Shown here: positions 880-58,800 of the stretch, in pieces
Layout: every line of letters begins with the position of its first letter
Position numbering within the stretch: the first letter of the stretch is position 1
Assembly (NCBI GenBank): GCA_025093555.1
Contig: JAIWNF010000069.1
Coordinates: 1 to 64,000, forward strand
Direction: 5' to 3'
From: Circinella umbellata
Taxonomy: Eukaryota > Mucoromycota > Mucoromycetes > Mucorales > Lichtheimiaceae
Length of the DNA: 64,000 nt
Notes under the pieces: model-generated
Databases searched by the model: none
What the model was told of the DNA's origin: nothing
What the model saw: only the letters and a program-made list of their open reading frames with translations
Made by a program: the position numbers and the translations under genes

Positions 880-2039
880 TCAATGATGTGTAATCTTCGG
901 TATCATCGGTTGTTTCTTCGTCTGTTTCTTCAGTATCTCCATCTGCTTCTGAGGAATCTGTTTTATTGGTCTTGCGGTTTTAATTCCTTGTATTTGTCGA
1001 TTTGGTATTTTATATGGTAACAGTCTTGAGTGCTGAAATGATACACATGTTACTTGGTTATGATATTTCAATGTGATAGTAGAGGTTCCAAAGTCTATTA
1101 TGGCTCTTGTTTTGTCCATCCAGTTGTTTCCAAGAATTAAATGTACAGGGCTGTCTGTCAATACTTCAATGTAATGGGGATTTTAACAAAATTTCCTATT
1201 TGGATTTCGACATCTTTGATAATTCCTTGTGATGCTTGTATTGCGCCGTTTCCTAAGGTAAATCGTGTTGATGACGATTTTTGTATTTCCATTTCTAAGT
1301 CATCCATTAAGGTTCTTGATATACAACTTTTTGCGGCTCCGGTATCATAAAGGCAAGTTACTGGTTTTCCTTGTATATGTACAGTCGAGTATGCTGCTGT
1401 CGGGTCTAGTTTATCGTCGATATCTTTTATATTCAAAGAAGGTTCTATCTTTCTTCGTGTTGATGTGAATGCATGTAATTCTCTCCGTAATTTTGGACTG
1501 AGCTTGATGAGATCTTGTATTTTTATTTGTGCGGTAATATTTGCAACATCTTGAACTATGTCATATTCGATTTCTGGTTTCATCCTTGGTTTACGCCTTA
1601 ATGGTCTCGGTCGTTGTTCAGCTGGTCCTTTTCCTTTGTTACGTTGGTCTGGATTATTTTCTTTTGTTGAGTAACTATTTGACGGCTGTTCTAACATTGT
1701 TGTATCTTCATTTATTGTTGTTTGTATAGTTGGTAATGTTTGGTGATAATCAGCTGGTGTTATACTGCTTTGTTGTTGATCTTCTATTGGAGGTGGTTGT
1801 ATTGCTGAAATAACTTGTGGAGTTTGTTGTTGATTTTTATTTTGTTGAATAGAAGCTGGTGGTTGTGGATCAAAATTTTCCTTCGTGATTGGTTCTTCAA
1901 ATCGAATCTTGCGTTGCTTTCTTTTATTTGAGCCTTGTGTGTTGCTTGCAACTGTTTTATTGACTGCAGTTCCAGAGCGTAAAGACATTGTTCGTCGTTT
2001 TTGTTGATTGTCTTCTTCTCGTGATCTTTTTTGCGCCAT
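880..2039 (-). pseudogene. Retrotransposon aspartic protease (frameshifted)
   Basis: Retropepsin-type protease of an LTR retrotransposon. After a basic, Q/T-rich N-terminal region, the motif CLYDTGAAKSCIS supplies the catalytic DTGA (about 1360-1330). The second conserved motif, LILGNNWMD, is seen at about 1135-1105 but in another frame; the frame change is at about 1160-1175. Retropepsins cleave the element's own polyprotein as a homodimer. The shift between the two motifs predicts a truncated, probably inactive product unless it is a sequencing error or programmed frameshift, for which I see no specific signal. Confidence 0.75.
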
Positions 2040-3515
2040 GTATAATTCATGTTGGGTAGGTTGTTTCTTTTTGTTGTTTTTATATGTTGTATAGTGATTC
2101 TTTGGATAATAATAATCATCTTCGTCTTCATTATAATATAAATCGTGATAAACGGATTTGTGTGGTGTATTGAGGGCTTCGAGCTGACCGCTTCTTACAA
2201 CTCGCCCTTGTAGTTTTTTGCCGATTGAGTTTCATCATGATCTTGATAATAATTATCATTCCAATAAGGGTCGTCGAAGTAATAATCGTCGTTGTAATAA
2301 TGTCGTAATAATATTCATCAGGTCGATCTTCTAAGTATGCGAAATTGTCGTAATTCTTGTTATCGTTTCTTAATCCTTGATTTCCTTTTACTGGTGGAAT
2401 AGTATTGGCATTTTTCTGATAATTATTTTGATTGTGATGTTGAGTAGCGTCGTAATGATGTTGTTGAAAAGTTTGTCGTTTATCTGATTGTTGATAAGCT
2501 TGTCGATTTTGTTGATAATTATCATTATTGTTGTTATATGATGGTCGTTCTTGATTATACTGATTTTCTTGATTTCGTTGGAATTCTGGTCGATTTTGAT
2601 AATTATTGTATCTCTGTCGGTTTCCATTATTATAATACGATTGACGATTTTGCTGTTGTGGTTGACGGTAATTGTTTCTTGGTGGATAAGTCCTTTGTCG
2701 ATTATAGTTATCGTTTTGATAGTTTGTGGTTCTGATTTGAGATCCCATTGTTCGAAAAGCGTCGGCAACAGTTAATCCTTGTTGTAACAAATCTTCAAAA
2801 GTTTGTTCTACATAACGGTCGTCATCTGGATAGTCTTGGTTTCCCATATTCTCCATGGTATTTAATGGTGTATATTTCTTGCGTCTATTTATTGGATTTC
2901 TTGATGCCTTGTCTTCTAATTCAGCATTCCAATATCCTTCTGCTTTTCGTAATACATCTTTATGTGACATAACGCACATACGCATGCAATGCTTTCGAAT
3001 TTCGGGTAATAATCCAGTCTTGAATCGGGATTCAATATGTTCTTCGTCTTTAATATCAGCTTCATGTGCAGCTTGTCTTAATCTTCCAAGATATGAACGA
3101 GGACTTTCATTATATCTTTGATTTATGGTATTGAAGCGTTCTCTGTATCGTTGAAGATCATATTCTGTAACATAATTTCTTTCTAGTAAGTCCATTGCTG
3201 CTGTTACGGTTGGTGGGGTACTTTCTTCATCTCGTAATTCTTGTAAATATGGTAAATTTCGGTGACATAATAAGTCAATGCAGGTCCTTGTAATACGCCT
3301 TGTAATATTTCTAATCGTCGTGATTCTGTTTGTGCGCCAGTAATTAAAATATAAGAAGTGAACTCTCTTCTGAACATGCGGAAATTTTCATGCTCATAAC
3401 CTCTGAAGGTTAACTCTGGTGGTGGTAGAGCAAATCTAGTGCGGTCGTCCAACACAGTTAGTTCGTTATGCACTTGACGTCTATTGATGTTTGCGCCAGG
3501 TAAATAGTTTTCCAT
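2040..3515 (-). pseudogene. Retrotransposon gag (frameshifted)
   Basis: Capsid-type gag of the same element, starting at the ATG at 3515 about 170 bp inside the PBS. The first segment (3515-3204) carries a capsid-like start with FRRE and ILQGVLQGPAL. Reading then moves to a second frame (about 3255-2131) with a retrotransposon-gag-like helical region (SPRSYLGRLRQAAHEADI, RFKTGLLPEIRKH, KAEGYWNAEL). A long Q/N/Y-rich tail follows, and I find no CCHC zinc knuckle in it. A further frame change occurs near 2240 before the protease begins. At least two frameshifts mark it as decayed. Confidence 0.75.
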
Positions 3516-17713: not shown

Positions 17714-20249
17714 CGTAATTTAAATAATAATACTACTAGACTATCTACCCTTTTTGTTTTTTTTTTTGTAATAATAACATAGAACTATACACATATAATA
17801 ATAATCTTTCACTGTACTCAGAGTATGTATAAATTCTCCTCACCAAATAATAAATCATTTGATACGTAACGGAAAAAGATAAATCAATTTTGTTGTACGG
17901 TATATAACTTTATTGGTTTTTCTAGTACTATCTAACATTTAATAGCTGATTTGAATCAAGTTTTGAATAGGTTATCACAGGTAATTCTAATAGTAAATGA
18001 TCATTTTCTTCAGTTTTACTGTATATAATAACCAGCTTGAGATTTTGGATACTTTTTAGATTAAACAAACAATTATATCCCCATTGAAAAAATAAAATAA
18101 TCTATAGTGGTAATCGCTTTTTATAACATCTATGGAAAGGTATTAGGACACACTTCAAAAAAAAAACCAAGGGTTATAGTTTTCCCCTATATAACTTTTT
18201 GTTGGGAATGATGTTACACTAACAATAGGGACAAAAGATTTCCCGTCTTGTCAACCCACCCCCCCTTTTTTTTTGGAGATAACAGATATATTTCCTATGA
18301 TTTGACATATGTTTTTATTTCAATTTTTTGGTTGACACGACATTCATTTTGTGGACGTTGAAATTCATGATAATGGACTTATTATCAATTGGAATGAATT
18401 ATTACTTTGTGCCTTGATTATTAATTTATTTATTTTTTTGACTTGGTGATAATATACTATATATTATTATTGTCCGCATGGGTGAATAACATTTTTTATA
18501 ATTCTATTTGGCGCTAAATGAATAAAAAAAAACTGTGCTTGGTTACATTGCCCAAATATTTCAAGAGTTTTCTTTATTGAAACGTAGTAATTACAAACGG
18601 ATATAAACAATTTATTGTTTTATATATTTTTGGATTGGAACATTACACAAGAGAATATGAAAAATATTAAGTTATCAGAAGAAAAATCGCACAGATAATG
18701 GTTTATGCTAATAGGCAGTCATGAAGATCTTTCTACAAAAAAAAAAAAAAGCGTACCACTAAAGACATTTTAATCAAATAATCCAAGAGTATTTTCGAGT
18801 TTTTTGTGTATAATATTCGAACTAGTTGATGCTAATGAGCAGTAAAAATTGATACATCTTATATAATTTATTTCAGTAGAATGGATTCAATACGGTAGTG
18901 TAAAATTAATTAAAATGAATATTAAGTATTCATAAGAAGTTATCATATAAAAAAAACATCATATTAGGGGGTTTTTTTGAAGTCTGTAGTTTAGTTAATT
19001 AAAGCGTACTGTTAATATCACAAGAGGATTGGCTACGGGTGTTGGCGCTGTACCACTACAATTAAAAAACCACAAGAAAAAAAACTAGTACTTTTTTTTT
19101 TATCACCAAGTTTTCTACGAAAACGCATTTATCCACGATTTTCTTTCGGGTCACGACGTGTACGGTAAATTTGAGAAGGTGCTGGCTTACTTCCAAGAAA
19201 ACCTGCACCATGCAGGTGCAGCCGTGATGGTGCTGTTACCCACCTGCTCATATAATTAAATGTTTTAATTTACATAATATACTCGAAGTACCTTTTACTG
19301 CTACTATTGACCCCTATTTAATATGTACTAAACACGCTACCAAAAAAAGCACTACGCACAAGAACAACAATGCCATCAACAATACTGTGTTGGAATATAA
19401 TATGGCCTCAACTATGTGATGTACTCTGAAATATATCGACTCCAACTACCATCCAAATGAAGATTAAATCAATAGTAAAGATCCGATCCTGGAAGACTCT
19501 TCCTCAATTGGATACAGCCTGCTGAAGTGCCACCTCGTTTGCTTACACCGACAACTAAACAATATCAACTACTATCATGATAAATAAAAATATCAATAAC
19601 AGTATGGCTACCACATCACCTCATGAAGTAAGTTGACTTTAATTATATGTAGTGCCTCCCTTTTATACACCTACCATACCATATCAACAGAAAAAACCTC
19701 TAGAATCCTCTACGATGCCTTCTCTTTACTTTAGGTCTTCGGCTTTGTTTTTTCCATTAACTTTTTTTCCCTTATCGCTTTAAGGTTTTTATATTTCTTT
19801 GCCTGACACGATCGGACTCAAGCAGATTTGTACTATTTCGACGCAGTATTCATTCAGTCATTTTTTTTTACTCTATATTAAACTTTAATATACTATCTAT
19901 TGGCTAAGGTATTGTTGCGCCAAAAATAATACGACAAACGAATCCATCGTCCATAATATTGTAGATATCAAAATGGTATGATACTGTGGACATTAATATG
20001 TTGGACCCCAAAACACCCATTAATAATAAACATGCAAGCAGTCATCAATAAAGAAAAAAAAGTACGGTACGTATTATTATAATAAAAAATATTCAGAATA
20101 AACGGACAAATGATGAGGATATGTAGACATGACATGACAAAAGAGAGTGGATTAAATCAGTAGAAGAATAGTTCAATATTCAATAGGTTCGTGTGGGTAT
20201 AATGAGTATATATACATGATAAGCGAGAAAGGAGAGGATACGACACTAA
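17714..20249. other. Gene-poor intergenic region
   Basis: Contains an old relic of the inverted-repeat transposon (about 18690-19090, listed separately). Directly after it, at about 19098-19253, is a short open stretch on the plus strand reading FYENAFIHDFLSGHD and KFEKVLAYFQENLHHAG. It has a less AT-biased composition than its surroundings but no start codon and no family I recognise. The rest is AT-rich with no supportable feature. Confidence 0.45.
18690..19090 (+). mobile_element. Diverged relic of the 30.4-32.8 kb inverted-repeat transposon
   Basis: Collinear with the right arm of the element at 30437-32751. Shared segments include CATTTTAATCAAATAA, AGCAGTAAAAATTGATAC versus AACAGTAAAAATTTATAC, ATTCATAAGAAGTTAT, and AGAGGATTGGCTA followed by GCGCTGTACCACTACAATT. 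Divergence is substantial, so the family was active well before the copy at 30.4 kb inserted. No opposite arm was found here. Confidence 0.7.
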
Positions 20250-20493
20250 GGGCAACCCCAGCAGTGGTTGTAAAATACATTTTTTGTAAAATAGAACCCG
20301 CAATTCATCTCCAGCAGCGGTTGTAAACGGGGAGGCAAAATGGATCTGCTGGAAAAAAATTGACAATCGTTTGTAAATTGCATACACCCGCTCAGGGGAT
20401 GTAAAAAAAAATCCCCCTTCTTTTACTTAATTTTTTTTAGCTCCTCCAAATAGCAAAATAGAAACGATTATACCTCCACTGCTGGGGTTGCCC
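20250..20493. mobile_element. Harbinger-like MITE, 244 bp
   Basis: Perfect 18-bp terminal inverted repeats (GGGCAACCCCAGCAGTGG) flanked by the trinucleotide TAA at 20247-20249 and 20494-20496. A 3-bp TWA target duplication with GGG-initial ends is typical of PIF/Harbinger elements. An internal copy of the end (CCAGCAGCGGTTGTAAACG, near 20310) makes a subterminal repeat. It has no coding capacity and would depend on a transposase elsewhere. Confidence 0.85.
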
Positions 20494-20518
20494 TAATATG
20501 GAATTATGTTTGGCGGTG

Positions 20519-22806: not shown

Positions 22807-23137
22807 CTTATGTCCAGGCAGCTTAACTTTGAAGCCCCCCCCCCAATTGAAAGTTTGAAGTTTCAAGCCCAGAATTTTACTATAGGTGAGTGACGAAATC
22901 AAGTGATGAAGGTAAAAAGACAAATGCTTTCTGTTTTTTGATAATGCCGAGTCTACTTCTTTTCTTCATTATACATTAACTTAATTTTTTTTAAAGATGA
23001 TCAAAAATAAAAAAATAAAAAGGAAGAAAATAATTACCTCCATCACTTGATTTCGTCACTCACCTATAGTAAAATTCTGGGCTTGAAATTTCAAACTTTC
23101 AATGGGGGGCTTCAAAGTTAAGCTGCCTGGATATAAG
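22807..23137. mobile_element. Foldback/MITE element with about 100-bp arms
   Basis: Two nearly identical inverted arms (about 22807-22908 and 23038-23137) beginning CTTAT(G/A)TCCAGGCAGC and including CTATAGGTGAGTGACG on one arm with its complement on the other, separated by about 130 bp of AT-rich spacer. No coding capacity. It sits directly upstream of the start codon at 22770, so it may overlap that gene's promoter. I could not define a target duplication. Confidence 0.7.
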
Positions 23138-25614: not shown

Positions 25615-28600
25615 TCACTGTGTACCCTGGTTTTGGTCGACACCTATGATTTTTACAAAGGATATTGTTAATATTTATTCTTCTTGTACGCAACATTTTA
25701 AAAAAAAATCGTTAACTTCTTTATAACTTACAAGCTATTTATAGTTGAAACAATTGGTTTTAGAGTAATAAATGTCATTTAGAATTTTTACAATAAATTC
25801 TGTTAGTACGTATTTGCTATTTTTTGTGGCATTACATATGAAAAATGTTAACTCGTACACTCCTTTATTTTGTAACTTACCAGCTATTAATAGTCAACAC
25901 ATTTGTTTTTAAAGTATTTGATATGATTTATAAATTTTTCAATGTATTCTATTATTAGTACGTACTTCTTCTTTTTTGTGACATTCTTATAACAAATGCT
26001 ACTAGCTCCACTCCTTTATTTTTATTTTATTTTTTGACTTACGATCTATTCATATTCATCGCATTTGGATTTCAAGTAATAAATGTCATTTATAATTTTT
26101 ACGTTATATTGCGTCAATATTCAATCTTTTTGTGCCATCATAGCAGAGGCTAACTTATACTTACTAACTATTGATATTCGCCACATTTGGTTAAAGTATT
26201 GGATATAATTTAAAATTTACAATGAATTCTGTTTGTATTAGCTCCTTTTTTACGGCATCAGGTATAAAAATGTTAACTTCACTCCATTTTTTTTAAAAAA
26301 AAACTTACGAACTATCAATAATCAACACATTGCGTTTTCAGGTATTGAATATCATTTATAATTTTTTGTTAGTATTTGTTCTTTTTTGTGTCATTTTGAT
26401 CAATATTAACCACACTTCTTTAATTTGTAACTTACTGCCTGTTTATAATGCACACGTTTGGTTTTAAAGTACGCAATAGATGTCATTTTTTAATTTTTAC
26501 GTTAAATTCTGTTAGTATTTGCTCTATTTCGTATTATTACATATACGAAGTGCTACGTCCTCTTGTTTATTTTGCAACTTACCAACTATTAATAGTTCAA
26601 ACAGTCGGTTTTAAAGTAAAGTGGATGTCGTATATAGTGTTTACAACGAATTCTGTTAGTAGCTGTTTTTTTTTTTGACAAAATTTAAACAAATGTGAGC
26701 GCCACTACTTACTGACTATTAGTACGTAACCCACATATTTAGTTTTCAACCAATGAATTTATATATAATATATACAATGGATTCGGTTAGTATTTCCTCT
26801 TTTTTGTGACATTATAAACAGGCTAGTTCCACTCTTTTATGTTTTAATCTACCATCTACTAATAGTCAACACATTTGGTTTTAAAGTAATAAATGCCATT
26901 TATCAGATTTAAAATTGATTTTGTTAGTGTTTGTTCTTTTCTGTAACATTTAAATTAACACTAACTCCACTCCCTTATTTTGTAGCTTACCATCTATATT
27001 AATAACCAACACATTTGGTTTTGAAGTAATGGATACGTATCATTCATAATTTTCAAAATGAATTCTGTTATTATTTTTTCTTACGTATTTCTGTGATTAT
27101 AAAAAGCGCTAATTTATTTGTAACTTACTTCCTATTATAAATCCATGAATTTGGTTTCAAAGTAATGAATGTCATTTAGGATTTTCACCATATTCGGTTA
27201 TTATTTGTTCTTTTATATGACATTTATAAATCAACGTTAAATAAGCTATTTTATATTGTAACTTACCACCTATTAATAATGCACACATTTGGTTTTAAAG
27301 TGATAAAAGATATCGATTATTATATTTACAATGACTTCTGTTAGTATTTCCTCTTTTCTGAAACAGTATAACAAACATTGACTCCATTCCTTTATTTTGT
27401 AACTTACAAACTATGAACAATCCACACATTTAGTTTAAAAAAATGGATGACATTTATAATTTTTACAGCGAATTTTGTTAGTATCATATTTGCTCTTTTT
27501 GGACATTTCTTGAGTATAAAAGAGAATTCCAGTCTCTTGTTTTTTGAACTTACTATCTATTAATATTCAATACATTGAGTTTCCAAGTCGTAAATGCCAT
27601 TTATAGTTTTTACAATGAATTCTGTTAGTATCTGTTTTTTTTTGGCGCGTGACTAAATGTTAATTTGACTACTTACTGACTATTTATAACCCACACATTA
27701 GGTTTTAAAGTATTGGGAATCATTTATAATGTTTACAATGAATTCTGTCAGCATTCTGTTTTTTTTTGAGGCATTAAAAAACAGGTTGATTCCACTTTTT
27801 CATTTTTCAACTTACCAGCTATTAAGAGTTAATATATTTGGGTTTTCAAGTAACGTAGACCATTTATAAAATATACAGTGATTAGTATTGATTCTTTTTT
27901 CTGTCGTTATTAAAAAAGGTGAATTCCACTACTTACGAACTATTAGTACGTATTCAACACATTTGGGTTTGAAGTATTGAATATGATTTATAATTTTTGC
28001 AATGAATTCTGTCAGTATTTGCTCTTTTTTGTGCCATTATGTATAAAACTGTTAACTACATCCTCTTATTTCCTTCGCTTACCGTCTAATAATATCCAAT
28101 ATTAATATCCAACACAATGGGTTTTAAGATAATACATGGTATATATAGTTTTTTTCAATGAATTCTGTTAGTAGTTGTTTTTTTTTTGACATTCAAACAA
28201 ACGTGAACTCTACTACTTACGAACTTTTAATAAGTATTCCACATGTTTTGTATAAGGTATTGGATATGATTTATAATTTTATAAAGTATTCTTTTAGTAT
28301 TTATGCTTCTTGCGGCATTAGAAAAAACGTTTTTATTGATAACTTACTAGCTGTTCAAAAGTCAACACATTTAGGTTTAAAGTAATGAATGCCATTTATA
28401 ATTTTTGAAATGAATTTTGTTAGTACTGGTCGTTCTTTCTGTAGTTATAAAAAGCTTTAACTCCACTACTTACGAACTATAAATATGTATTCAACATATT
28501 TGGTTTAAGGTAATGGATATGATTGATACGTAATTTTAAAAAGAATTCTATTAGTATTTGCTCTTTTTTGTGGCACTATGTACTATAAAAATGCTGTGAA

Positions 28601-29013
28601 ATCCACTCTCATATTTTTTAACTAACCCGGTACTAATATTCCACACGTTTGGTTTTCAAGTAATGGATGTCATTAATAGTATATACAATAATTAGTACGT
28701 ATTGTTTCTTTTTCCTGTAGTTATAAGACACGTGAACTCCACTACTTACCAGCTATTGATATGTATTCAACATATTTGGTTTTAAAGTAATGGATATCGT
28801 TGATAATTTTTAGAATGAATTACGTTAGTACTTGTTTTTATTTCTGTCATTACGTATATAAAGTGTTAACTTTAGTCGCTTATATTGTGACCTACGATTG
28901 TTCCCGGTAGCACTACCACCGGTTCCAGCGTTTTCAGATGTTTGGGCAATACTTGAGTATGCTGCGGAAAGGACCAAAATACAGGCGAATAAAAAAATAG
29001 TAGAATATTGCAT
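25615..29013 (-). CDS. Secreted chaplin-like protein encoded by 3-nt micro-exons (25 exons)
   Basis: Exon 1 (29013-28896) encodes signal peptide MQYSTIFLFACILVLSAA plus a short linker. It is followed by 23 micro-exons, all AG|NNN|GTAAGT-like: 28750-28752, 28627-28632 (6 nt), 28474-28476, 28348-28350, 28221-28223, 28083-28085, 27937-27939, 27816-27818, 27677-27679, 27554-27556, 27408-27410, 27267-27269, 27129-27131, 26991-26993, 26853-26855, 26713-26715, 26583-26585, 26436-26438, 26309-26311, 26165-26167, 26043-26045, 25881-25883, 25732-25734. The last exon is 25643-25615. The 219-nt join is open and ends in TGA: 72 residues. Residues 40-54 are PVPVPIHVPVNICGN and 55-64 DVIGILNPAC, with Cys52 and Cys64 spaced as in chaplins (hydrophobic, amyloid-forming surface proteins of Streptomyces). 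All 24 introns are phase 1. Seen: splice sites and join. Known: chaplin motif. Inferred: surface role. Transcripts are not available here. Confidence 0.85.
25735..28895 (-). repeat. Array of 23 homologous introns (115-160 bp units)
   Basis: The introns of the micro-exon gene are diverged copies of one another. On the minus strand the consensus runs: donor GTAAGT; an AAATAAAGGAGTGGAGTTAAC-like block; TGTCACAAAAAAGAGC; a TACTAACAGAATTCATTGTA block; ATAAATGACATCCATTACTT; AAAACCAAATGTGTTGA; acceptor CTATTAATAG. TACTAAC is the canonical branch-point sequence and lies about 68 nt before the acceptor in the intron at 25735-25880. A shorter class has donor GTAAGTAGTGGAG and lacks the AAAATAAAG block. 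The final intron (25644-25731) is shorter and only partly related. Apart from the 3-nt exons there is no coding potential. Confidence 0.85.
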
Positions 29014-29072: not shown

Positions 29073-29132
29073 ACTTTATATTGCTTTTTTTTGGCTTTTA
29101 ATTAGTGTAGGGGGTTAAGGAGTATTTTTATA
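29073..29132 (-). promoter_or_regulatory. TATA-box candidates of the micro-exon gene
   Basis: Reading towards the start codon at 29013, TATAAAAATA lies at 29132-29123 and TATAAAGTGA at 29080-29071, about 110 and 60 bp upstream of the ATG. Either could position transcription. Assignment is by motif and distance only. Confidence 0.4.
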
Positions 29133-37444: not shown

Positions 37445-50841
<13,397 letters not shown>

Positions 50842-52813: not shown

Positions 52814-55800
52814 TTAAAATCCAGTAAAGTGAGGTGTTTGCATGGTCATATGGGTAGCACCTGTGGGTGCGGCTGCTAACATTAATGGATTACCTAAACC
52901 CATGACAGGTTGCATGGATTGAGCATTATCTGATTCTTGTTCTTTCTTTTCAGCTTTTTGTTTTAATTCTTCAACATCTTTATCCAAGATAGAAATCTAA
53001 AAGAATAAAAAAGATCAATTATTAATATAACCTAATCATCGTTATTATTATATTTATATATATATATATACCTTGCTCGTTTGTTCATGAAGTAAATTAA
53101 TCATATAAGGCATTGAAAAATCACTTAATCCATGACGCCATGATAATTCCATCACAATATCAGGTCGCATCAAATCATAACATGTATATAACATGGCAGC
53201 AAAACATTCACGTCGACCAATTTCAATAAAGTAACCCAATAATTCTTCAGCTACTTCACGATCTTTGGATTCGGCAGCGGTGTCCATGGCATCCTTGAAT
53301 AAACGATCTTGTTTAGACAAAGCAATCGATTGGCGCCAACGACGGTTCTTTTTATATAAATGAGCAGCAATACGACGGAATTCCAACAATTCATGTTTTT
53401 CTAAACGTTGAGCAATTTCAATGGTATCAATATTATTATAATGATCAATGGAATCACGAAGTGAATCAAAATCTTCTTCTTCAATAAATAATTCGTTTAA
53501 TGCACTATTGACTGCCTTGTTGTTGAGGTGTTGTACAGATTGTAAATAGGAACGAATTAATGGAATATTGTCGGATTTTTCAAAGAGTTGAACGACACGT
53601 GTGTGATTAATACGTGGGACCATCGATGCTAATAAATCATTGAGTAACATGGGTTGTTCGTTCAAATAGAATCGTAATGCCTTGTAATATAATTCCACAT
53701 TGGATACTTTAACAATAATTTCCTTGAATGCAGAATGTTCCCATGAATCAGAAGCATGATCCATCATCGCTTGTACGGCATTATCAAATTCATCATAATG
53801 AACATACAAAAAGACAAGTTCACGCCATAAATGAGTATCATTACAAGCACGGATCACCTTGGGAATATTGATACGAGAAACAAATAATTTCAAATGTTCC
53901 ATCATTTTTTCAGGTGCATATTTGGAATAAAGAACTGCTAATTCGGTAAACATGCCCATATGAGCTCGTTCTAATCCAAGACCATCTTCCAATAATGTAA
54001 TCAATTGTTCAAAATAACCATTGTTTTCATATGTCTGAACGACTTGTTCTAATTCTTCGGCATGAACAATGATATGTAATCCACAAATCTTGGCTAAACG
54101 GAATTCTTGTTGTCCAATACAAACAGTATTTACTTCTTTCCATACTTTCGTACTATTGGCTTTACGAGCACAATCCACAGCACCTTGATAATCATTCAAA
54201 TGAACCAACGTCGTAGCCAAACTAGCATGATTGGAAATACTTGTATATAAAATCTTGGCAGCTTCAAGCATATGAGCTTGGAAACAACGATCACCTACTT
54301 GTTGCACTTCAGCAATATTGGGTGAACCAATAAACTCTTCCATATCGGTCAAACGATCCGTCTTGGCATAAGCAAACAAGAGTTCGGTTTCAATGTAAGG
54401 TTCACGTGATTGTTTACGAGCCAATTGAAGGAATCGAACCAAATCATCGTATTTACCATCCATTTCAGCATGACGTGTGACTTCCATATAATTAGAAGTA
54501 TCATTCGCACGAATATAAGAGTCTAAATAACTCCTTTGGTTAGTAAAAACTATCCCACTTCTTTTTAATAGAATCAATTCTTTTCTTTTCTTTTTTAATT
54601 TACCAATAGATTCCTTGATACGCATATTATCCAATTGAGCCTTAGCCAATTTACTCCATACATCCGATTGATCACACCGTTCAGCAAATTCATAAGCACG
54701 ATCCAGATCACCAATTTTATCAATCAAAACCATAACAGCATCTCCATTGACATTATATTTTTTAAAGATAGCAAAGGCTTCTTCGAATAAATTTTCACCA
54801 ATACATACTTCAGCAACATCAGGTGCATCAAAATTATCCAATTTAGAAACATAATCCATCACTTTAGTATGATCAGCCTAATTTGTTTTTTAAATAAAAA
54901 AAAAAGTTAGTCTATATATAAATATATAAAAGTAGGGCAAATCATTCATATATAGATGTTTTTTTTTACCTTGACAGCAGTAAAGATAAGTAAATTTTGA
55001 AGAGTTTTGTTATCATTGAAAGCGCTTTGTTCTAAAACAATACGTTCTAAAAGTTCAATTAATTCGTTGGGTAAATCAGCAGCCATAAATGCTTTAACGG
55101 TAAGTGAAACATCTTCAGGATCAGTACATTCAGGTAATGCAGTAGCGACAATCTATTATATACATATATGCTAATGGATCAGAAAACATATATATACACA
55201 TACACGCATATATATTTCTATATTACCTGATCAATGACTTCACGACGATTTTCATTATTTTCTTGTAAAACATATTGCCAAAGTGACAAATCACGACGAT
55301 GCACAAGATAGCGAGCTTGATGTTTAAACATGGCATTTTCACTGGTGATATGAATCAGTTCATAATCACATTGACCCTTTTCATAAGCAATATAAGCTAA
55401 ATAAGGATCACGCTTTTCACAGTATTTACCAATAATCCGTGGTTCGTAAAATTCATTCTCTTTTAAGAAAGGTTCAGGATTATTATTGGTATCAATATAA
55501 ATCTTGGCCAAAGCATTATACACTTGACGATCTTGACTGCCCTCGGTGACACGCATATTTAACCAGGGTAACAATAATTTGAGACGATTCCGTTGTTCTA
55601 CTTCTTCACATAATTTACCGACATCCAATTCACCTTTGACAGATAATAATAAACTCTTAATAATATCTTCATCACATCCAACATCCAATAATCCACCAAT
55701 GACTTCAGGTGTACGTGACGGATTTACTTTTTGAACATAGACTTCAATGAATTTTTGTAAATTGTTGTGATAAAGATAAAGAACCAAATCATGGACAAAA

Positions 55801-58800
55801 CCGAATCGATCACATACAATAATCAAGGGTAATTGATCAGAAAGTCGTGCTTCCTAAAAAAAAATAATATGATAAAATAAAAAAGGTTAATAAATTTTTG
55901 TTTGATCCAACCATTCGATCATTCTTATTACCTTGAGGAAATTCTTGACTTTTTCAGCATCATAATAGTTACTTTCACGACAAATACGTTCCGCTTCACG
56001 AACATTACCCGTACGACATGCAGCTTGAATATATTTGAAATGGACTAACGGATCTTGACTGACATTGACAATGGAACCCAAATAGTAGTACAAACCTAAT
56101 ATACATATATTTCATTCCACTTAGCTTTCACTTTCCCTTTTCTTAAATTACCCCAGATTCTCCCCTTATTTTATATTTTGATTATTACCTTCATTACTCT
56201 TGAAACCTTCAAGTAGATCAATTAAATTATGAGGTTGTAATTGTTCAGAATATTTAATAGCCACTTGAACAACGACTTGTAAATTTTGACGTAAATTCAA
56301 ATTTAACATTTCTTTGAGACAATCTAAAGTTTGATCGACTGAAAGTGTACCAAAGTAATTGACGAGCCATTCAGCATTCATTGTATGTGTATATGGAATG
56401 ACACGTTTAATATCATGAATATCTGTAAAATGTTCCAATGCCTATAAAATATAATACAATAAGTTATTCCCCCGTTATTATTATAAGTCCCCATGATTAT
56501 AAGTTATATAAAAACTTACGCGTTGATGTAATCCAGCTTTTTCACAAAGAGTACCAATAGCGACACGATCATAGTGTGTAAGCATACCAGTACCTAAAAT
56601 AGCATCCGCTACTTGAGGAGCATGAGTTAAATTCATTTCAAGAACACGTGTTTGTAATGCAGCATCTTCTTCTCGATTATTCTTTAAATAATCAAGTAAG
56701 AAAGAAGTTGCTTGTTGAAGCATATTTTGTGATAAAAGAACATCGACCACCTTAAAAAATAAACAAATAAAGTAAATAAACAAATAAAAATGCAGGTACA
56801 TTCTTTTTCCCCATAAATATAAATTCTCTTTTTTTTACCTTATCAGCTTCAATCAAAGGACCATTTTCATCATTAATCAAAGTATGAGCAAAATCAACCG
56901 TCTTGTCAGGATCACTACGTGCAATATTATATAACAAAGAAGAATAATCCGGTGTATAACCCACAGTCTTAGCATAAGCAACAATTTTTTCATATTGACG
57001 ATTTTCAGCAAAACAAAGAACGACTTTGTGAGGTACACTCGCACGTAAATAAACGGATAAAGCTAATTTCGAATCGAATTGGCGCACAAAATCACCTAAT
57101 TCTTCACTACATTCCAATTTATCTTCTTTAAGCCATCTTTCCAATAAAGGTTGACGATTTTGTTGTAAGACAGGTTTTGCCATTTCTAATGATTCATAAC
57201 GATTTAATCCTCCCTTTTCTAATAACAGACCCAAGTATTTTAAGATGGGTGATAATTGATTCGGTGCAGCTGGTAAATTTCTGAATCGTTCAATGGTATC
57301 GACTGTACGTAAAATTCCCTATATATATATATATAGATATTAAGAAGAGTAATGTTGTTTTAGTTTCTTTTACTTTGGATTCTATCTATATAAATATATA
57401 TATATTGAAAAAAAAACATACCCTTGGTGAATTGGCAGCCATCTTAGCAGCATCATCATAAGCACCAGAAGAAAATAATTGATTGAATCGACTCACACAT
57501 AAATCATCCGCACCAGCTAAACCAGCACGACCCGCCAATTTAAGAGCCAATTCCGTATTATTCAAATTATTAACGATATAAGGAACAATCGTATCTTCAT
57601 CCAAAGTGACTGATAAAACTTGACCCTTTTTATTGACACCAATGACACCTGAAGTAGATTCATGATCTGCCGTAACAAACATGGTATCCCCACTAATACG
57701 ATTCATAAAAAGACAAATACCGGTTTCAAGATCATAAATATGAATAAAACCCATTTTTGTAACCACATAAATGACACCATATTTAGCACCGACTTGCATA
57801 GATACAGGAAAATCTTGACTTGCTTCAGGTGGGAAAAATATTTCAACAGCTTTCTTTTGAAAAGGTGGATTGCCTTCAGAATGATCTACTTCAATGATTT
57901 GAAGCTAATAATAATAATAATATCATATCATGTGAGTCGTCTTTATAATGAACAAAAATCAAATGAGTATTCAGCAATTTATACCTTGGAATCACCTGTA
58001 GCTGTACGAACAGCAAAAGCGAATAATTTGGTTGGATGAGGAGCATCTTCCAATTGAATAGAAGCAAAAGCAGCAGCATGACCTTCAATAAATTGACTGA
58101 CACCACGATCTTTGGAATAAAGTTGCATCGATCCAACCACACGCCCTTGTTGAGCTGAAATACCGACAAGTACCATCCATTTTTCATCTTTTGAAACACG
58201 ATAATTAATAATTTGACAACCGGCTAAATTCGTATGTCGATCAAATACTTTGATGGGACCTGAAGTGCCTTCAATAGACCAATGATAAACAGCATTTTGA
58301 GTAACAAGACCAATTTTTTGTAAATCAATCCATTTCCAAAAAATAATATCTTCAGGCATTAAATGGGATTTGACTTTAGTTTTTGTTTCAAGATTAAAAA
58401 CTTGTAATTGACGACTTGCTAAATAAAAATGGAATCGTATTTGTTATTGAGTAAGGACGGATTTTTATTTATACTATGTATATATATATATATATACTAT
58501 TGTTTTTTTTACCTTTCAATGCCATAACTTTGGTTGTTGGATGCATAATGACAGAGTCTGCTGTGATGGGTCGTCGCATCATTTCATTATTATTGGCCAA
58601 GTCAATAATAACCACTTGGTTTGTACCATTGACTTGTTCACGTACACAAATAAAACGTTCCGACTCTAATGTAAGTGTACTAAAACCAATACTTGCTGCA
58701 TTGACTCCCAAGGATTGCAGCTATATATATAATAAATAAAATGCCGAGATGAGAACAAAAAAAAAAAAAGGTTGCCATTGATATATCATAATGAAAATTA

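Follow-up and report, generated by a model that had tools for sequence, protein, structure and literature searches.

Architecture of the predicted one-codon-exon gene

We analysed a 64,000-nt stretch of the Circinella umbellata genome (GCA_025093555.1, contig JAIWNF010000069.1, positions 1–64,000), referred to here as the window, which carries on its minus strand, between 29013 and 25615, a predicted gene built largely from exons of a single codon. Twenty-two triplets and one hexamer lie in this region, each flanked by an AG acceptor and a GT donor. Together with a first exon of 118 nt (29013–28896), which ends in phase 1, and a final coding piece of 29 nt (25643–25615), they join into a single open frame of 72 codons with the product MQYSTIFLFACILVLSAAYSSIAQTSENAGTGGSATGNNPVPVPIHVPVNICGNDVIGILNPACVDQNQGTQ. 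All of these elements were located exactly where a first-pass annotation of the DNA had placed them. The model comprises 25 predicted exons, 23 of them consecutive micro-exons of 3 or 6 nt, and 24 introns of 88–159 nt, with a GT donor and an AG acceptor in 24 of 24. Codons 40–64 are split after base 1, codon 42 being the sole unsplit one, in agreement with what had been proposed. The N-terminus encoded by exon 1 is signal-peptide-like (MQYSTIFLFACILVLSAAYSSIAQTSENAGTGGSATGNN). The features are listed below; all lie on the minus strand, and the micro-exons and last exon are those predicted in the joined model.

29075..29080: TATAAA 5′ of exon 1 (by eye, unscored); the 5′ region resembles that of the paralogues (e.g. 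L024)
28896..29013: exon 1, 118 nt of coding sequence ending in phase 1, signal-peptide-like; five array paralogues and one conventional gene have a related exon
28750..28752: micro-exon 1, CTG
28627..28632: micro-exon 2, TACCGG, sole hexamer, donor GTTAGT
28474..28476: micro-exon 3, TTC
28348..28350: micro-exon 4, CTA
28221..28223: micro-exon 5, TTC
28083..28085: micro-exon 6, ACG
27937..27939: micro-exon 7, TTC
27816..27818: micro-exon 8, CTG
27677..27679: micro-exon 9, TCA
27554..27556: micro-exon 10, ATA
27408..27410: micro-exon 11, TTT
27267..27269: micro-exon 12, GTG
27129..27131: micro-exon 13, GAA
26991..26993: micro-exon 14, ATG
26853..26855: micro-exon 15, ATG, weak donor GTAGAT
26713..26715: micro-exon 16, TCA
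26583..26585: micro-exon 17, TTG
26436..26438: micro-exon 18, GCA
26309..26311: micro-exon 19, TTC
26165..26167: micro-exon 20, TTA
26043..26045: micro-exon 21, ATC
25881..25883: micro-exon 22, CTG
25732..25734: micro-exon 23, CTT
25615..25643: coding part of the last exon, 29 nt including the stop, VDQNQGTQ*
25644..28895: 24 related introns of 88–159 nt between the micro-exons; most donors read GTAAGT, branch points are TACTAAC-like and AG is scarce in the stretch 5′ of the acceptor

The sequence 3′ of the last coding piece resembles, by eye, the 3′ ends of four paralogous arrays. The motif AGNNNGTAAGT occurs 19 times in the window, always within the array, compared with a mean of 1.66 and a maximum of 5 in 100 shuffles. 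Atypical donors are GTTAGT, after the hexamer, and GTAGAT, after 26853; the first donor reads GTAGGT. A strict splice-site search with free exon length recovered 20 of the 23 micro-exons, passing over the hexamer as well as two triplets whose donor is GTAAGC, while a looser threshold recovered 21, along with a single false exon of 8 nt that disrupts the frame. Owing to these unusual donors and the imperfect free search, two or three positions keep the model of the window gene from being purely mechanical.

A family of array genes in the genome

The genome searched (50.8 Mb, 210 contigs) contains five array genes besides the window gene, C147, C177b, C113, C191a and C191b, which share a related first exon and intron family and encode different products. 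Micro-exons were sought across the family with splice-site matrices, leaving exon length free between 1 and 20 nt and imposing no rule on frame. In the final models the six genes contain 110 micro-exons, 104 of 3 nt and six of 6 nt, and introns of 88–161 nt. The first exons all end in phase 1, and each codes for a variant of MKYSTIILFACxLVLSAA. The hydrophobic N-terminus, a putative signal peptide as read from the sequence, is conserved in all six and in a conventional gene, L032.

C177b (L019; C177:100000-109900, 2918 to ~9080, plus strand) lies on the same contig as the window gene, at ~103–109 kb, and is more extreme: 43 of 43 micro-exons are 3 nt long, and the product, which contains a 22-codon internal repeat, ends in ...LEDALGAIRAQIHEIKAQIRVSVGDQKTELRAHLHKIATQIRNALIEALRD. 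An amphipathic helix in this product was considered and rejected, as shuffles reach it 1,561 and 712 of 5,000 times. In C147 (L018) all 18 micro-exons measure 3 nt and one donor is GC; its product reads ...RRDSGVQKNCGFCSGEGCKLKPA, and the 3′ end of this array was not found. C113 has nine 3-nt and two 6-nt micro-exons (product ...RSRLCNALQQHTILCH). C191a and C191b adjoin each other, with matching introns 92% identical on average and short cysteine-rich product ends. A Pfam scan of the C147, C177b, C113 and C191a products and of the conventional gene yielded no family above its cut-off.

Relic arrays are present at C101 (L025) and C153 (L022), each with an interrupted array behind a first exon; by eye, the first exon at C153 looks frame-shifted. 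In the conventional two-exon gene L032 (C8:39672-39755 and downstream, minus strand), a related signal-peptide-like exon is followed, after a phase-1 intron, by an exon rich in cysteine; the gene has relatives in Circinella minor (P0121, P0122). Its intron gave no match to the array intron model. The 90 intron-consensus matches listed, a lower bound, all fall in the arrays and the two relic loci; this search missed one further C153 relic unit that a profile search detected. An origin from introner-like elements dispersed in many unrelated genes is not supported, the listed matches being confined to arrays and relics. A weak first-exon match was also seen at L034 (C178:820900-820962, minus strand; E 0.056), with no array visible nearby.

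Splice signals and coding signature

The distance from [TC]AG to GTAAG[TC] was tabulated for 0 to 15 nt in the six arrays: 92 pairs are 3 nt apart, five are 6 nt apart, one is 15 nt apart, and there are none at any other distance. Donors are exactly GTAAGT in 100 of 116 cases, and just 3 of 110 micro-exons end in AG; this combination indicates that splice recognition should be intronic. A clear branch-point motif was found in 92 of 115 introns, and from 6 nt past it to the acceptor AG occurs 7 times where 215.8 are expected. As controls in the same 92 introns, downstream GA was counted 199 times (214.4 expected) and upstream AG 388 times (418.6 expected). The branch point lies a median of 68 nt from the acceptor, with distances of 24–27 nt in six introns. 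A conserved RNA structure that would bring the acceptor near the branch point was not predicted on a 62-intron alignment.

The used frame contains no stop in 116 codons, and its codon log-likelihood is −3.8 bits, compared with −57.8 and −133.2 bits in the other phases. At the wobble base, T makes up 61% and G 3% in micro-exon codons, against 53% and 6% in first exons and 44% and 13% in ordinary open reading frames of the window. It is base 2 of the triplet that has the wobble composition, with T in 68 and G in 1 of 104.

The joined product matches the chaplin family

Chaplins are described as coat amyloids of Streptomyces (PMC3079736, PMC5618241). The Pfam chaplin profile (PF03777, ChpA-C) matches residues 25–64 of the joined window product with 36.2 bits against a cut-off of 21 (E 5.4e-9), so that the reading came through the test that the first-pass annotation had set beforehand as one that could refute it. 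Both chaplin cysteines are present, as had been claimed, one in NICGN and one in NPAC. The likeness to Streptomyces ChpA-H comprises a signal-peptide-like N-terminus and one hydrophobic domain of the form HVPVN-CGN ... VIG-LNPA ... C with two cysteines. The spacing between the cysteines is shorter than in the ChpH query: the window product is 2 residues shorter after CGN and 4 shorter before the last cysteine. Unlike the Streptomyces chaplins, it is fungal and encoded with one codon per exon.

A second profile was made from 120 ChpH-like proteins, of which those with species names are all from Streptomyces. Against it the true micro-exon order scored 33.7 bits, compared with 17.0 bits for the best of 20,000 reorderings, 1,741 of which had an internal stop that was scored as X. 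This difference, together with the 19 copies of AGNNNGTAAGT against at most 5 in shuffles, bears out the earlier judgement that the join is beyond chance. In the predicted frame, the joined micro-exon region plus last exon scored 30.0 bits against the chaplin profile; among its five remaining frames, three scored −1.0 bits or less and two gave no match. The non-repetitive half alone (NICGNDVIGILNPAC) reached 13.4 bits, and none of 20,000 residue shuffles (19,819 scored) exceeded 12.0, a narrow margin.

NCBIfam contained no family matched by the window product, and no solved structure matched it. Patterns back-translated from the product gave 192 matches in bacterial genomes, none of which was confirmed as encoding a relative. 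No fungal chaplin is named in the titles and opening parts of abstracts among the open-access papers listed for the chaplin domain. We infer that the window product would be a secreted chaplin homologue of actinobacterial origin, probably a surface-active amyloid coat peptide.

Growth of the arrays

For some arrays, the sequences show tandem gain of intron-plus-codon units. In C147, introns 14 and 16 are 99% and introns 15 and 17 are 93% identical, which amounts to a two-unit duplication. The units of C177b match at an offset of 22 units (intron diagonal z 3.9), at which the triplets are identical in 39 of 63 positions, compared with a mean of 0.356 at other offsets. C191b carries one hexamer unit more than C191a.

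Introns 1–10 of the window gene alternate between two subtypes (4 of 252 splits are as good, with the true one counted twice). For 12 of 23 window introns the nearest relative lies in the same gene, compared with 5.0 expected. Mean intron identity is 0.695 within the window gene and 0.705 to C147; within-gene clustering is hidden in these means and becomes visible by nearest neighbours. An origin of the window array by simple duplication of another array was rejected, there being no clear diagonal (top z 2.4 over many offsets). Among other gene pairs, the diagonals of C147–C113 and C177b–C191a reach z 3.0–3.1.

Several duplicated units differ strongly in their coding part. Units 15 and 17 of C147, with introns 93% identical, carry the micro-exons TCA and CTG, and units 2 and 3 of C191b, the closest intron pair of that array at ~92% identity, carry GCCGCG and GTAACC. 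Diversifying change of the codons in such units is possible.

Interpretation and alternative explanations

We propose, with a probability of about 0.87, that these loci represent a Circinella umbellata gene family for small, probably secreted proteins whose mature domains would be encoded almost throughout by 3-nt exons of one codon each, with all introns in phase 1. What looks like a satellite had been read as a gene of one-codon exons from the window alone; that reading has since gained support from five more genes, the 3- and 6-nt spacing, the exclusion of AG and the wobble composition. That the introns are spliced, in what order, what the proteins do and that the chaplin came from bacteria is what we infer from the sequences.

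Several observations weigh against this proposal. The 3-nt-spaced sites that served to train the splice-site score come from the same array loci. An AG is missing at three of the 110 acceptors (one in C191a, two in C191b); the corresponding exons were placed by hand, and these copies may be decaying. In the public annotation of C177b (protein P0123), exon 1 is instead followed by sequence from within an array intron, and the apparent amphipathicity of the C177b product falls short of significance. As the introns are related copies, the AG depletion does not represent 92 independent events; moreover, AG directly after the branch-point motif is common and was excluded from the count, and departures from expectation are also seen for other dinucleotides (370 downstream TG where 185.5 are expected, 322 upstream GA where 416.8 are expected). 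Across the genome, ATAGNNNGTAAGT is no more frequent than its reversed control (210 versus 212), with 80 of the 210 copies located in the six arrays. The codon likelihood of the used frame is itself slightly negative; the +1 frame is also stop-free, the +2 frame has 10 stops, and triplet reordering alone gives zero stops in 3% of 2,000 trials. Regarding the chaplin identity, pairwise BLAST with one chaplin aligns just 16 columns, 11 of them identical. No relative of the window product was found among database proteins (candidates of 0.55–1.75 times its length sharing three 5-residue words), and a PF03777 search of ordinary exons in the genome itself gave none, a result that does not show absence, since 14 control genomes were equally silent.

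The arrays could be degenerate satellites or decayed genes in which splice-like spacing and an open frame are leftovers, with no present splicing. The relic arrays at C101 and C153, with the apparent frame shift at the latter, and the three non-AG acceptors of the C191 copies are in keeping with decay. Decay would, however, erase AG exclusion, wobble composition and phase, all of which persist family-wide despite a mean difference of ~25–35% between intron pairs, and the window gene keeps GT and AG in all 24 introns as well as its open frame; we consider this explanation very improbable. If the gene is spliced, subsets of micro-exons may vary and give rise to a pool of peptide variants, as in flatworm micro-exon genes, for which exon-skipping variation is the published view (PMC7653826). 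Since each micro-exon is one codon (hexamers two) and all introns share phase 1, the frame survives whichever micro-exons are skipped; donors and acceptors are also near-uniform. Yet it is the complete join that matches the chaplin profile, which suggests selection on the full chain and makes variable subsets, in our assessment, somewhat unlikely.

The chaplin likeness might also be convergent, an array that grew codon by codon having drifted or been selected into a similar surface-active peptide. Such growth would suit the alternating subtypes of window introns 1–10, as the PVPVPIHVPV stretch may have arisen by two-codon duplications; four other array products are without a Pfam family above cut-off, and the protein database yielded no fungal chaplin relative. 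The Pfam E value of 5.4e-9 and the NICGNDVIGILNPAC half, which narrowly beats its own shuffles (13.4 versus 12.0 bits), speak for homology instead and leave convergence distinctly unlikely. Homology to a bacterial protein would equally be preserved if an introner-like element had walked along an existing chaplin exon, 3 nt per step, with the coding order kept. Such serial insertion would place all introns in the phase of the first, and it agrees with window intron identities that are about equal within the gene (0.695) and to C147 (0.705). Against it stand the unit duplications in C147 and C177b and the 12 of 23 window introns with their nearest relative in the same gene; in addition, the lower-bound search found no intron copies in other genes, unlike dispersed introners. 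We hold serial insertion to be a possible but doubtful route.

A model for splicing and array evolution

Under the proposed one-codon-exon organization, the array introns would really be spliced. Since any coding triplet may stand on the exon side of a donor, while GTAAGT, TACTAAC and an AG-poor run to an acceptor ~68 nt downstream all lie in the intron, recognition would follow intron definition. Removal would be serial, most simply 5′ to 3′, each ligation adding one triplet to the growing exon and thereby setting the next GTAAGT directly behind a long exon. The process would resemble a recursive-splicing ratchet point, but with three nucleotides retained per step. Arrays would lengthen or shorten by tandem duplication or loss of intron-plus-codon units, always in frame, and the window gene would yield the secreted chaplin homologue from an actinobacterial source. 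Pools of variants are possible, because skipping a single codon preserves the frame. To the fuller picture, in which the codon is the unit of exon and gene evolution, tens of introns are spliced serially, and one array has captured a bacterial chaplin while its sister arrays encode unrelated secreted peptides, we would give even odds.

If true, this organization would extend the known limit of exon recognition, with dozens of serial 3-nt exons found without exonic information. The array genes would be a natural substrate for studying sequential versus simultaneous intron removal and splicing fidelity, would represent a route by which proteins lengthen by single in-frame residues, and would place a chaplin-type protein in a fungus. 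Such genes would also escape ordinary annotation, as with C177b, which was given another second exon, and the window product, for which no database relative was found.

Comparison with known systems

In a report on a Hymenolepis genome, micro-exon genes are defined by at least seven exons, of which at least half are micro-exons shorter than 70 nt and divisible by 3, with a run of at least four (PMC7653826). The predicted exons fall within this definition, with 23 consecutive micro-exons in the window gene and 43 in C177b. Schistosome and tapeworm micro-exon genes have a conserved signal peptide, a variable secreted mature part and in-frame runs of micro-exons (PMC10526429, PMC7653826), to which the signal-peptide-like N-terminus, the variable and probably secreted mature part and the predicted micro-exon runs of the array genes would correspond. 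The array genes differ in micro-exon size, 104 of the 110 predicted ones consisting of exactly one codon, in runs as long as 43, and in that the introns are short (88–161 nt) and mutually related, whereas schistosome introns reach 5 kbp; the host, moreover, is a fungus rather than a flatworm, and one product is a chaplin. The first-pass annotation had taken schistosome genes as the nearest analogy and held their exons to be longer. The latter point does not stand, as schistosome micro-exons are reported to span 3–81 bp (PMC10526429), and so it is the unbroken run of one-codon exons, and not the size of a single exon, that is unusual. Among the open-access papers listed, also in searches aimed directly at such genes, no title or opening part of an abstract describes runs of single-codon exons. 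According to a 2024 paper, functional micro-exons had not been described earlier in filamentous fungi (PMC11121469).

For the 1-nt exon of Arabidopsis APC11, simultaneous splicing of both flanking introns is reported as unlikely, and intron definition with recursive splicing has been proposed (PMC4674806). Serial removal is proposed here for the Circinella arrays by the same logic. In APC11 and in recursive splicing, acceptor and donor nearly touch and one-by-one removal is the proposed solution (PMC4674806, PMC13149111); the array geometry is compatible with recursive splicing. APC11, however, has one such site and ratchet points keep 0 nt, whereas the arrays have 23 to 43 sites with one codon each. 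A tandem array with paired acceptor and donor at the unit borders is also reported for the polyubiquitin gene UBC, with its dual-specific splice sites (PMC10809524); there the repeat unit is a whole ubiquitin, while the Circinella unit is an intron plus one codon.

Surroundings of the array gene

Contamination was rejected as a source of the array, since a clathrin heavy chain gene and a retroelement remnant also lie in the window. Pieces of the former lie at 53054–58443 on the minus strand, with Pfam Clathrin assigned for 53054–54874 and the remainder up to 58443 recognized by eye; its introns differ, by eye, from the array introns. The retroelement remnant (1161–2231, minus strand) encodes a gag-type aspartyl protease. 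A large open reading frame with armadillo-like and laminin-G-like domains occupies 40419–42857 on the plus strand. Two further elements were noted: a fold-back element at 22807–23137, with arms of 76 and 34 nt (96% and 97% complementary, respectively), and a small element at 20249–20494 with 28-nt terminal inverted repeats that are 89% complementary, a similar end being seen by eye at the C101 relic locus.

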